Shown here: piece after piece, positions 27,604 to 30,624 of the stretch
Layout of the letters: each line of letters begins with the position of its first letter
How positions within the stretch are numbered: position 1 is the first letter of the stretch
Source of the DNA: Clostridia bacterium
Lineage (GTDB): Bacteria; Bacillota; TC1; UBA5767
NCBI GenBank assembly: GCA_030625965.1
Contig: DAOUPV010000009.1
Location: forward strand, 1 to 47,631
DNA: 47,631 bases
Direction: 5' to 3'
Position numbers and translations under genes: made by a program
The notes under the pieces: model-generated
Told to the model about the DNA's origin: nothing
The model's database searches: none
The model's input: the letters and a program-made list of their open reading frames with translations, nothing else

Positions 27604-27820
27604 CACTCTATGCGTAGATAAACAAAACAGACAAAATCATGAAATAATGACAGAAGTATATGGAAAAGAAAAAGAATTTTAAAAAACTTTCAGAAAAAAG
27701 AAGGAACATGCTTTCTGCCCTAGAATAGGACTAGAGATATAGAGAAACTGTGCAAAATGCACGGACACAAAATCTATAGAAGGAGGGATTTGTACCGTAG
27801 AAAAGGGAAGTTTTTTTTTG

Positions 27821-27850
27821 CCGGTTAGGTTAATCGTTTAAGTTAATCGG
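27821..27850 (+). promoter_or_regulatory. Conserved 30-nt hairpin or operator in leader A
   Basis: The outer eight bases pair in both leaders. Compared with leader B (29399-29428), three pairs change in ways that keep pairing (G-T to A-T, T-A to T-G twice). The centre here is AATCGTTT against AAACGTTT in B, so it could also be a LacI-family type palindrome. Confidence 0.5.
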
Positions 27851-27864
27851 GATATTTCAATGTT

Positions 27865-27933
27865 TAGTCCTTGCTGTTTGACGTAAAAAGCCACAGCGAT
27901 TAGTCCTTGCTGTTTGACGTAAAAAGCCACAGC
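27865..27933 (+). repeat. Tandem pair of 33-nt pseudoknot-like elements (A1, A2)
   Basis: Two identical 33-nt copies (27865-27897 and 27901-27933) have a 36-bp period. Each can form the stem GCTGT/ACAGC (A1: 27873-27877 with 27893-27897). Each can also form a crossing GTC/GAC helix (27867-27869 with 27880-27882), leaving the A-rich loop GTAAAAAGCC. Copy A2 ends 24 bases before the start codon, close to the AGAGGTGG ribosome site. Confidence 0.7.
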
Positions 27934-27957
27934 CAATACTAATAAGAGGTGGATAAT

Positions 27958-28950
27958 ATGAAAAAAATACTAATACTTGGTCTTGCACTATGCATGATGA
28001 TTTCTTTTGTGGGATGTTCGAATGATGCTGAATCTGGTGAGGTTTCGGAAGATACCTTTAAAGTGGCTCTTCTTCTGCCAGGTACAACCAACGACGGCGG
28101 TTGGAATACTACTGCGTACAACGGTCTAATGGCGATTGAGAAAGAGTTCGGAGCGGAAGTCAGCTATACTGAATCTGTACCCCAATCCGACATGGAAGAG
28201 GTTTTCAGAAATTATGCTATGTCCGACTTTGACCTGATCATCGGCCATGGTTTCGAATTCGGCGATGCGGCTTTACGTGTTGCTCCCGACTATACCGATG
28301 CCATCTTTATGGTGACCAGCACAGATATTTCTCAAGAACCCAATGTGATTTCCTTGCTTACGGATAATCAGCAACAGGGATTCCTGCAAGGTGTCGTGGC
28401 AGCTATCGTCAGTGAGACCGGCGTAATCGGCGGCGTGGGCGGAATGGAAATACCTCCCATCACGGCTGACCTGCAAGGCTACGAAGCTGGTGCCTTATAT
28501 GCAAGACCGGATGTAGAAGTAATCAACGTTATGACCGGTTCGTTCGACGATGCCGCTTCCGCTAAGGAACAGGCTACGGCCATGATCGATGCGGGCGCTG
28601 ACGTTGTGATGCACGATGCTGACCACGCAGGTCTGGGTGTCATCGAAGCGGCTGATGCTGCAGGTGTGTATTCCATAGGATCTATCGGAGTTCAGTTTGA
28701 CCTAGGAGACAAGGTCTTGATGTGCGGTGTTACAGATATGAACCAAGCGTTCATCGAGATGGCCCAAAAGGTAGTGGACGGTTCCATTGAATCACAGAAC
28801 TACATCATGGGTGTCAAAGAGAACGTGGTCTCTATGGAAATGAATCCAGATCTGCTGGATGAGGTTTCCGAGGAAGATCTTGCAGAAATCAATGGAATCT
28901 ATGAAATGATTAAGTCCGGAGAAATTGTACCAGCGGACTATTTGAACTAG
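27958..28950 (+). CDS. Bmp/PnrA-type substrate-binding lipoprotein A
   Basis: The 330-residue product is a periplasmic-binding-protein-like lipoprotein of the BMP family, whose known members bind purine nucleosides for ABC importers. The signal peptide ends in the lipobox FVGC with Cys20. The mature part has FKVALLLPGTTNDGGWNTTAYNG, DMEEVFRNYA and IIGHGFEFGDAAL. I start at ATG 27958 with AGAGGTGG upstream, not at GTG 27949. No ABC permease or ATPase genes lie nearby, so it either uses a distant transporter or acts as a sensor. It is paralogous to the gene at 29578. Confidence 0.9.
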   Translation: MKKILILGLALCMMISFVGCSNDAESGEVSEDTFKVALLLPGTTNDGGWNTTAYNGLMAIEKEFGAEVSYTESVPQSDMEEVFRNYAMSDFDLIIGHGFEFGDAALRVAPDYTDAIFMVTSTDISQEPNVISLLTDNQQQGFLQGVVAAIVSETGVIGGVGGMEIPPITADLQGYEAGALYARPDVEVINVMTGSFDDAASAKEQATAMIDAGADVVMHDADHAGLGVIEAADAAGVYSIGSIGVQFDLGDKVLMCGVTDMNQAFIEMAQKVVDGSIESQNYIMGVKENVVSMEMNPDLLDEVSEEDLAEINGIYEMIKSGEIVPADYLN

Positions 28951-28966
28951 TAACATTCAATTGTCT

Positions 28967-29083
28967 GCTGAACGTGTAGTCGCGGAGTTACATGATTCCA
29001 ATTTTGTTATCATCTCCAGCGATGCCAGCAACGGGTCCGACTATGGATCAGTTAAATGCGACATCAGCGGATACGACTTATAA
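28967..29083 (+). pseudogene. Deletion remnant of a third Bmp-type lipoprotein gene
   Basis: In one frame this reads AERVVAELHDSNFVII and on through SNGSDYGSVK, matching the middle of the 29578 product (AERVATEFPDTTFII, TNGSNLSSV). It then jumps directly to DISGYDL-stop, which is the exact C-terminus of that product. About 190 codons of the family are missing between the two parts and the 5' part is gone. The following terminator also resembles that of the 29578 gene. This records a former third tandem copy. Confidence 0.85.
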
Positions 29084-29093
29084 GATAGTTTAC

Positions 29094-29119
29094 AAGCCCC
29101 ATCCTTTCGGATGGGGCTT
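29094..29119 (+). terminator. Terminator after the Bmp remnant
   Basis: AAGCCCCATCC-TTTC-GGATGGGGCTT, a perfect 11-bp stem with a weak T tract. It is nearly identical to the terminator at 30637-30660 and now ends transcripts of lipoprotein gene A. Confidence 0.85.
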
Positions 29120-29295
29120 ACTTATTGGACTTAGTCGAAAAAGCAATACACATAGTTTGAATTTAGGTGGAGTGGCACAGTAGAGGATAGTAAGCATATT
29201 TTAGCCTTTGGAGGAATTATATGTAATTGATAGCATAGAAAATAGGGAAAAAAACATAAAAAACTAGGAAAAAAGAAGGATTATGCTTTCTACCC

Positions 29296-29577
29296 TAGAA
29301 TACATATAGCGATAAAGAGAAACTGTGCATTGTGCACGGACACAAATTCTATCGAAGGAGGGATTGGTTCAGGAATGCAAGAGAAAAGTTTTTTTTTGCC
29401 GATTAGGTTAAACGTTTAAGTTGGTCGGTTATTTAAAAATTCGTCCTTACTGTTTGACGTAAAAAAAGCTACAGTGTTCTTCCCGTTCCGACGGGTGGAT
29501 TGAGTCCTTGCTGTTTGACATTAAAAGCTACAGCATTGTGAGATCCTCGCTAAGCGAGAGAACGAAAGGAGAATTTT
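29296..29577 (+). promoter_or_regulatory. Long conserved leader B of the second Bmp-type gene
   Basis: It repeats the block order of leader A: TAGAAT (29296-29301), GAGAAAC, GTGCA-TTG-TGCAC (29325-29337), GGACACAAA, GAAGGAGGGATT, T9 (29389-29397), the 30-nt palindrome (29399-29428) with a perfect AAACGTTT centre, and two pseudoknot-like elements. Extra hairpins lie between the elements (CCCGT-TCCG-ACGGG, 29482-29495) and before the ribosome site (CTCGC-TAA-GCGAG, 29546-29558). Confidence 0.6.
29441..29534 (+). repeat. Pair of pseudoknot-like elements (B1, B2)
   Basis: B1 (29441-29475) has the stem ACTGT/ACAGT (29449-29453 with 29471-29475), a compensatory change from the GCTGT/ACAGC of the other copies, and a loop two bases longer. 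B2 (29502-29534) has GCTGT/ACAGC (29510-29514 with 29530-29534). The GTC/GAC helix is kept in both (29443-29445 with 29456-29458; 29504-29506 with 29517-29519). The spacing is 61 bp rather than 36. Confidence 0.7.
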
Positions 29578-30624
29578 ATGAATAAGAAACTTTCTGTATT
29601 GCTTGCCCTTTTGCTTGTTGTATCTTTGGTAGCAGGTTGTGCTACGAATGGTGAAGCCTCGGTTGAGCCTGCTGAGGAACCTGTAGAGACTCCAGCAGAA
29701 GAGCCTGCTGAAGAAGCTAAACCTCTTAAGGTTGCTGCCATGATGCCCGGTCCCATCAATGACATGGGTTGGAATGCTACTGCATACAACGGACTTCTTG
29801 CAATTGAAGAGCAGTTCGGTGCTGAAATCAGCTATGTAGAGAACGTTTCCAGCTCCGACATGGAAGAGGTTTTCAGAAATTACGCACTCCAAGGTTTTGA
29901 CGTGGTCTTCGGTCATGGATTTGAATTTGGCGATCCTGCTGAGCGTGTAGCTACTGAATTCCCTGACACGACCTTTATTATCTTCTCAAGTACAATCACG
30001 AACGGTTCCAACTTGAGTTCAGTTACCTTCTCCGCACCTCAGCAAGGCTTCCTCGCCGGTGCTTTAGCAGCCCTGATCACTGAAACTGATATCGTAGGTG
30101 GTATCGGTGGACTGGATATCCCGCCCATCCGTATGCCGATCCAAGGCTTCATAGCTGGTGCTGAGTATGTGAATCCTGACATCGATGTTAGAGCGGTTAT
30201 GACTGGTAGTATGGATGATGTAGCAGGCCTGAAAGAAACGGCTTTCGCTATGTTGGATCAAGATGTAGACGTTATCTTTGCTTTGGCCGACCAAGCAGGT
30301 ATGGGTGCCATCGAGGCGTGTACCGAAAGAGGCGCATGGTCAATTGGTGCCAACGTGGACCAGAATGAGCGTTCCCCTCAAACCGTTGTTCAGAGTGTCA
30401 TCAAAGACTCTCCGGTATTATACACCTATATGGTGGATATGATTGCAAGCGGAAATTATGAGCCTGGCATGTACGAACTGGGCGCAGCTGAGGATGCTAT
30501 TTTCCTGGCTGACTGGCACGGTTTCGACGAGCAGTTCCCCGAGGCGAAAGCTGAGATTGAAGAAATCATCAAAGGAATCAAATCTGGAGAGATCACTATC
30601 GATATCAGCGGATACGACCTGTAA
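29578..30624 (+). CDS. Bmp/PnrA-type substrate-binding lipoprotein B
   Basis: The 348-residue lipoprotein is a paralogue of the 27958 product. Its signal peptide ends LVAGC (Cys21). A Pro/Glu-rich tether of about 25 residues (EEPVETPAEEPAEE) then lifts the binding domain from the membrane. The domain has VAAMMPGPINDMGWNATAYNG, DMEEVFRNYA and VFGHGFEFGDPAE. The ending ISGYDL is also found in the remnant at 28967. GAAAGGAG precedes ATG 29578. By family, it probably binds purine nucleosides or a related ligand. Codons are biased toward a highly expressed set. No transporter subunits are adjacent. Confidence 0.9.
   Translation: MNKKLSVLLALLLVVSLVAGCATNGEASVEPAEEPVETPAEEPAEEAKPLKVAAMMPGPINDMGWNATAYNGLLAIEEQFGAEISYVENVSSSDMEEVFRNYALQGFDVVFGHGFEFGDPAERVATEFPDTTFIIFSSTITNGSNLSSVTFSAPQQGFLAGALAALITETDIVGGIGGLDIPPIRMPIQGFIAGAEYVNPDIDVRAVMTGSMDDVAGLKETAFAMLDQDVDVIFALADQAGMGAIEACTERGAWSIGANVDQNERSPQTVVQSVIKDSPVLYTYMVDMIASGNYEPGMYELGAAEDAIFLADWHGFDEQFPEAKAEIEEIIKGIKSGEITIDISGYDL

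Follow-up and report, generated by a model that had tools for sequence, protein, structure and literature searches.

The 47,631-nt stretch of clostridial DNA analysed here (the window) carries two Bmp/PnrA-like lipoprotein genes on its + strand, gene A at 27958 to 28950 and gene B at 29578 to 30624, and the leader of each contains a short element that is present twice. The question raised by this locus is whether the repeated element acts as duplex DNA or as RNA, and, if as RNA, what it might respond to. A preliminary description had read it as an RNA pseudoknot with the topology of preQ1-I riboswitches. The two genes are paralogues (46% identical), and at the ribose-side motif of the Bmp family gene B keeps its aspartate (NVDQ) where gene A has IGVQ, so the two receptors may differ in the compound that they bind.

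Four tandem copies and their distribution

All four copies were found on the + strand where the preliminary description had placed them. Each consists of a stem, S2, and a potential crossing helix, S1. In leader A, A1 occupies 27867 to 27897 (S1 27867-27869/27880-27882; S2 27873-27877/27893-27897) and A2 occupies 27903 to 27933 (S1 27903-27905/27916-27918; S2 27909-27913/27929-27933). In leader B, B1 occupies 29443 to 29475 (S1 29442-29445/29456-29459; S2 29449-29453/29471-29475) and B2 occupies 29504 to 29534 (S1 29504-29506/29517-29519; S2 29510-29514/29530-29534). S2, the outer stem, is closed by G-C in A1, A2 and B2 and by A-U in B1, where the change of one base is matched by its partner, as had been claimed; the loop likewise varies between 15 nt and, in B1, 17 nt with the stem kept paired. 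With up to three mismatches allowed, the pattern GTCCTTNCTGTTTGAC matched the window five times (the four copies and one site with three mismatches), and shuffled sequences gave a mean of 1.3 matches, with none of 100 shuffles reaching five. The conserved 16-mer is no chance repeat. Across the whole 2.57-Mb genome the strict pattern occurs at these four sites alone, and apart from a tandem pair that has decayed, on another contig and immediately ahead of what is left of a truncated Bmp gene resembling gene A (G000:C145:31136-31184; L021 1490-1760), no further intact copy is present in that genome.

Leader A is homologous to the upstream region of leader B (77-86% identity), and A1 and A2 share 97% identity at a period of 36 nt, compared with a spacing of 59-61 nt in the orthologues. 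For this reason, leader A seems to have gained its pair recently, through a tandem duplication independent of the other pairs. Such a duplication hints that having two copies matters, with neutral duplication as the alternative.

Homologues were sought in 61 related genomes by BLAST with leader A as the query, and across the order (10 genomes) with a covariance model, R1. Tandem pairs were found in two further species of the same genus (G001 and G002; loci L006 and L007), in each case before a Bmp gene that is 75-83% identical to gene B. Upstream, all three B-type loci have the same radical-SAM gene, itself preceded by the same neighbours, and on the strength of this shared synteny the two Bmp genes are orthologues of gene B. 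The preliminary description had proposed a search of Clostridia with a covariance model; a wide distribution was not what emerged, as R1 matched only this genus among 398 genomes of the phylum, plus one site with E=0.005 (L036) that was rejected as a homologue for lacking the GAC and ACAG parts. In the same 398 genomes, the other matches to a relaxed pattern that left the bases of the S2 stem free do not form the stem. A search of about 85,000 genomes with the exact pattern returned UBA5767, in tandem, and five single matches, which were set aside as being about the number expected by chance (approximately five by our own estimate), not in tandem and devoid of the A-rich loop. No match to the exact pattern was obtained in viral contigs, no similar tandem repeats were seen in other Bmp leaders, and a literature search that reached few subscription papers yielded no description of the element. 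Within these searches, the element is restricted to one genus, in which three species carry it.

Constraint, covariation and probable position in the transcript

Between orthologous leaders, the unit of about 140 nt that runs from the first copy (PK1) through hairpin Pa, the second copy (PK2) and hairpin Pb to the Shine-Dalgarno sequence is 85-89% identical (measured on about 142 nt), whereas fourfold-degenerate sites of the Bmp gene behind it are 29-36% identical, which is near saturation. The unit is thus under strong constraint and, judged from these comparisons, stands out in a non-coding leader as a block under strong purifying selection. In leader B the conservation reaches across the two hairpins and the Shine-Dalgarno region, and upstream of PK1 the sequence of leader G1 is not recognisably alignable with the other leaders. 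Pa (29482 to 29495, + strand) lies between B1 and B2 and pairs CCCGU with ACGGG; it reads CCCGC/GCGGG in G1 and is without its fifth pair in G2. Pb (29546 to 29558, + strand) lies between B2 and the Shine-Dalgarno sequence and pairs CUCGC with GCGAG, which becomes CUUGC/GCAAG in G2. A possible long-range helix, P_L (29476 to 29563, + strand), would join GUUCU (29476-29480) to AGAAC (29559-29563) and enclose Pa, PK2 and Pb; its two strands are invariant in the three species. The Shine-Dalgarno sequence of gene B is AAAGGAG at 29565 to 29571 (+ strand), with which UCCUU of PK1 can pair, and the corresponding region of gene A is AAGAGGTGG at 27944 to 27952 (+ strand).

Among the three orthologues, compensatory double changes fall in three stems, namely S2 of PK1, Pa and Pb. 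When the same number of changes was placed at random, 38 of 20,000 placements reached three stems (P about 0.002), a value to be taken as indicative given that the stems were picked by eye and one alignment position was corrected by hand. S2 is paired in 100% of the nine copies, and the covariation score of the whole structure over these copies was reached by one of 500 shuffles, with slid controls lower; this covariation rests on few events in the three species that carry the element. Whole-leader folding energies are unexceptional (z -1.1 to -1.2). A coding explanation was rejected, as indels and the copy spacings of 33, 36, 59 and 61 nt break every conserved reading frame.

In addition, the motif AGGA-N17-GAATA, assigned as promoter-like through the consensus of the sigma-H family, is present in all four leaders at 130-170 nt upstream of PK1, at 27700 to 27727 in leader A and at 29275 to 29302 in leader B (both + strand). 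Of 82 Bmp leaders 19 contain it, compared with an expectation of 1.2 from shuffles, and so does one of 78 control stretches; a scan for sigma-70 promoter-like sites in turn returned only a chance number. If this sigma-H-like motif is used, its distance upstream would place the copies inside the transcript. Taken with the constraint, the compensatory stems and the broken reading frames, this upstream motif indicates that the element most likely acts as mRNA. The leaders thus hold a conserved structured RNA in a 5' UTR, a general feature of riboswitches, and the earlier proposal of an RNA element is supported by homologues in two further species, by constraint far beyond that of neutral sites, by the compensatory stems and by the position in the transcript.

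Several further features were observed in these leaders. A LacI-type dyad is found at 27830 to 27841 in leader A (TTAATCGTTTAA) and at 29408 to 29419 in leader B (TTAAACGTTTAA), both on the + strand, and eight Bmp leaders (A, B, L006, L007, L073, L093, L094 and L095) have a dyad of this type (TTAAWCGWTTAA) close to their start, where it is probably a shared operator. Leaders A and B alone have in common an upstream repeat with a hairpin (27735-27793 and 29310-29368), consisting of GATATAGA..TCTATA and CGATAAAGA..TCTATCG around GAAAC-stem-GGACACAAA; its likeness to the c-di-GMP-I core is superficial, with no match in Rfam.

A possible crossing helix and known RNA classes

In every copy, the GUC before S2 can pair with the GAC in the loop of S2, which would give an H-type pseudoknot with a predicted S1 of 3-4 bp, an L1 of 3 nt (CUU), an S2 of 5 bp, an L2 of 2 nt (UU) and an A-rich L3 of 9-11 nt. 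The pseudoknot put forward in the preliminary description is sterically sensible and can be formed by all copies, but one of equal quality turns up in 3-5% of shuffled copies (and in 2.6% of the 37-mers of the window), and we regard it as plausible. Covariation, which the preliminary description had asked for in both helices and had seen only in the outer one, is present in S2; in S1 the three core pairs are indeed invariant, but the outermost pair does change, being C-G in three of the nine copies, A-U in one, G-C in the decayed one and unpaired in four. In G1, S2 is not the structure favoured by thermodynamic folding, which has the two copies pair with one another.

Rfam scans of the window and of leaders B, G1 and G2, at gathering and at permissive thresholds, returned nothing relevant. 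The copies resemble preQ1-I riboswitches (RF00522) in forming a potential H-type pseudoknot of about 31-34 nt with an A-rich third loop that adjoins the Shine-Dalgarno sequence. They differ in having an L2 of 2 nt and in preceding Bmp genes and not queuosine genes. In preQ1-I, a cytosine (UC or AC) directly precedes the 3' strand of P1 (PMC11625349). Eight of the copies have UU at this position and the decayed one has CU, so that the specificity cytosine is missing. At permissive settings the RF00522 model matched neither the window nor leaders B, G1 and G2, and it had no match in four whole genomes, with a B. subtilis control detected. Membership in preQ1-I was rejected on both grounds, and the likeness is one of topology only, as the preliminary description had judged it.

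A single gene preceded by a tandem of two small, nearly identical domains also recalls guanidine-II (mini-ykkC) and glycine riboswitches, for which tandem small aptamers are known (PMC9481103), and would suggest cooperativity; the present copies lack ACGR tetraloop hairpins, the glycine fold and any Rfam match. The NAD+-II riboswitch (the pnuC motif) likewise provides a nucleoside-type transporter gene with a pseudoknot leader (PMC10085692) and has an A-rich strand and translational control, but its helices and conserved bases are different, it is not tandem, and it too finds no Rfam match here. For the NAD+-II and guanidine-II models, if they are part of Rfam 15, the permissive scans listed no riboswitch family. 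The purine riboswitch (RF00167), which regulates genes for the transport of purines and nucleosides in Bacillota, differs in its three-way junction fold; it was not matched in the window scans and was absent from the four genomes tested. Very rare RNA switches that are confined to one genus can escape family searches that need a wide phylogenetic spread, and the present element, should it prove to bind a ligand, would rank with the smallest aptamers known, in this case used in tandem.

Proposed translational control and rival explanations

No terminator-like structure was found on the + strand of the leaders, and as no intrinsic terminator follows the copies, control is most likely exerted at the start of translation. 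In the mechanism that we propose, each copy of about 31 nt would form a hairpin of 5 bp (GCUGU/ACAGC), and pairing of its loop with the GUC ahead of it would yield a compact H-type pseudoknot, with two such copies in tandem directly upstream of the Shine-Dalgarno sequence. As long as nothing is bound, the UCCUU conserved in the first copy would pair with the Shine-Dalgarno sequence; formation of the pseudoknot, probably upon binding of a small molecule related to the transported compound, would withdraw UCCUU and so change translation, an ON switch being our guess. Folding predictions place UCCUU on the Shine-Dalgarno sequence with a probability of about 0.8-1.0 in leader B and in a short G2 construct (duplexes of -11.0 and -10.5 kcal/mol), and accessibility of the Shine-Dalgarno sequence rises when the bases of the pseudoknot are held out, in leader B from 0.25 to 0.58-0.72. 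The same pairing is predicted at about 0.3 in a longer G2 construct and weakly for G1 and leader A; because of this weakness and the mutual pairing of the G1 copies, we treat the UCCUU platform as a hypothesis.

On balance, we consider it an even proposition that this is an orphan, genus-restricted leader of tandem pseudoknots controlling translation, probably through a small molecule, and thus a riboswitch candidate. What the analysis shows is the copies and their confinement to one genus, the constraint on the leader unit, the double changes in the stems and the sigma-H-like motif; the crossing helix, the pairing of UCCUU with the Shine-Dalgarno sequence, small-molecule sensing, the ligand, the direction of control and any cooperativity are inferences. 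The more specific proposal is held tentatively and with less confidence: a new class of tiny riboswitch, in which two tandem H-type pseudoknot aptamers of about 31 nt would sense a purine, a nucleoside or a related compound and release the Shine-Dalgarno sequence of a catabolic Bmp receptor, the class being confined to a single clostridial genus whose set of Bmp receptors is unusually expanded. Riboswitch classes usually range beyond one genus, which counts against a riboswitch here. Where each genome has 15-41 Bmp paralogues, a transporter induced by its substrate would be sensible, direction and ligand both being guesses.

The same RNA-level evidence applies if the repeats are a site for a trans-acting regulator protein that recognises the fold, with two copies giving avidity and no ligand bound directly. 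Near-invariant loops and tandem copies suit protein sites, and their limitation to a single gene family and a single genus agrees with a regulator specific to this lineage. The three loci do not have a regulator gene as a constant neighbour, though, the genes that they share lying mainly upstream with none an evident regulator, and a compact pseudoknot with an A-rich L3 is typical of RNAs that bind small ligands; we therefore think a protein site unlikely, if still a serious contender. Plain base pairing, in which UCCUU and the hairpins would set the accessibility of the Shine-Dalgarno sequence as an attenuator, a thermosensor or a small-RNA target with no ligand-binding pseudoknot, draws on the complementarity of UCCUU and on the free folds of leader B and the short G2 construct, which sequester the Shine-Dalgarno sequence. 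It leaves the invariance of TTTGAC, AAAAGC and the downstream half, and the retention of two copies, unexplained, the pairing fails to be strong in G1 and leader A, and a genome search for small-RNA complements of the 16-mer gave no excess over the control rate; it is improbable as the full account.

Direct repeats with highly conserved primary sequence, in leaders that also have a LacI-type dyad nearby, might instead be duplex-DNA operators read by a DNA-binding protein. A symmetric or fixed-spacing duplex site was not found, as the two inverted repeats have different centres, the loop changes by 2 bp (15 or 17 nt) and the spacing takes values of 33, 36, 59 and 61. Moreover, the stems carry compensatory changes, the copies lie 130-170 nt downstream of the promoter-like motif, the conserved unit continues through the hairpins to the Shine-Dalgarno sequence, and the separate LacI-type dyad is already a candidate operator. 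We consider DNA operators very improbable.

For the riboswitch candidate, identification of its ligand would suggest what one receptor imports, in a genus that holds 15-41 Bmp receptors per genome with mostly unknown substrates. Bmp matches at E < 1e-20 number 41 in the 2.6-Mb genome of the window, 24 and 15 in two sister species and 12 in the nearest other genus, making the receptor set of this genus (15-41 per genome) an unusual expansion. Finally, a palindrome around TTAGACATCTAA is found just before the Shine-Dalgarno sequence in four other leaders (L074, L097, L100 and L102) and, inverted and imperfect, in L124 and L148. Two genera conserve it ahead of another group of Bmp orthologues, and it looks like a regulator site.
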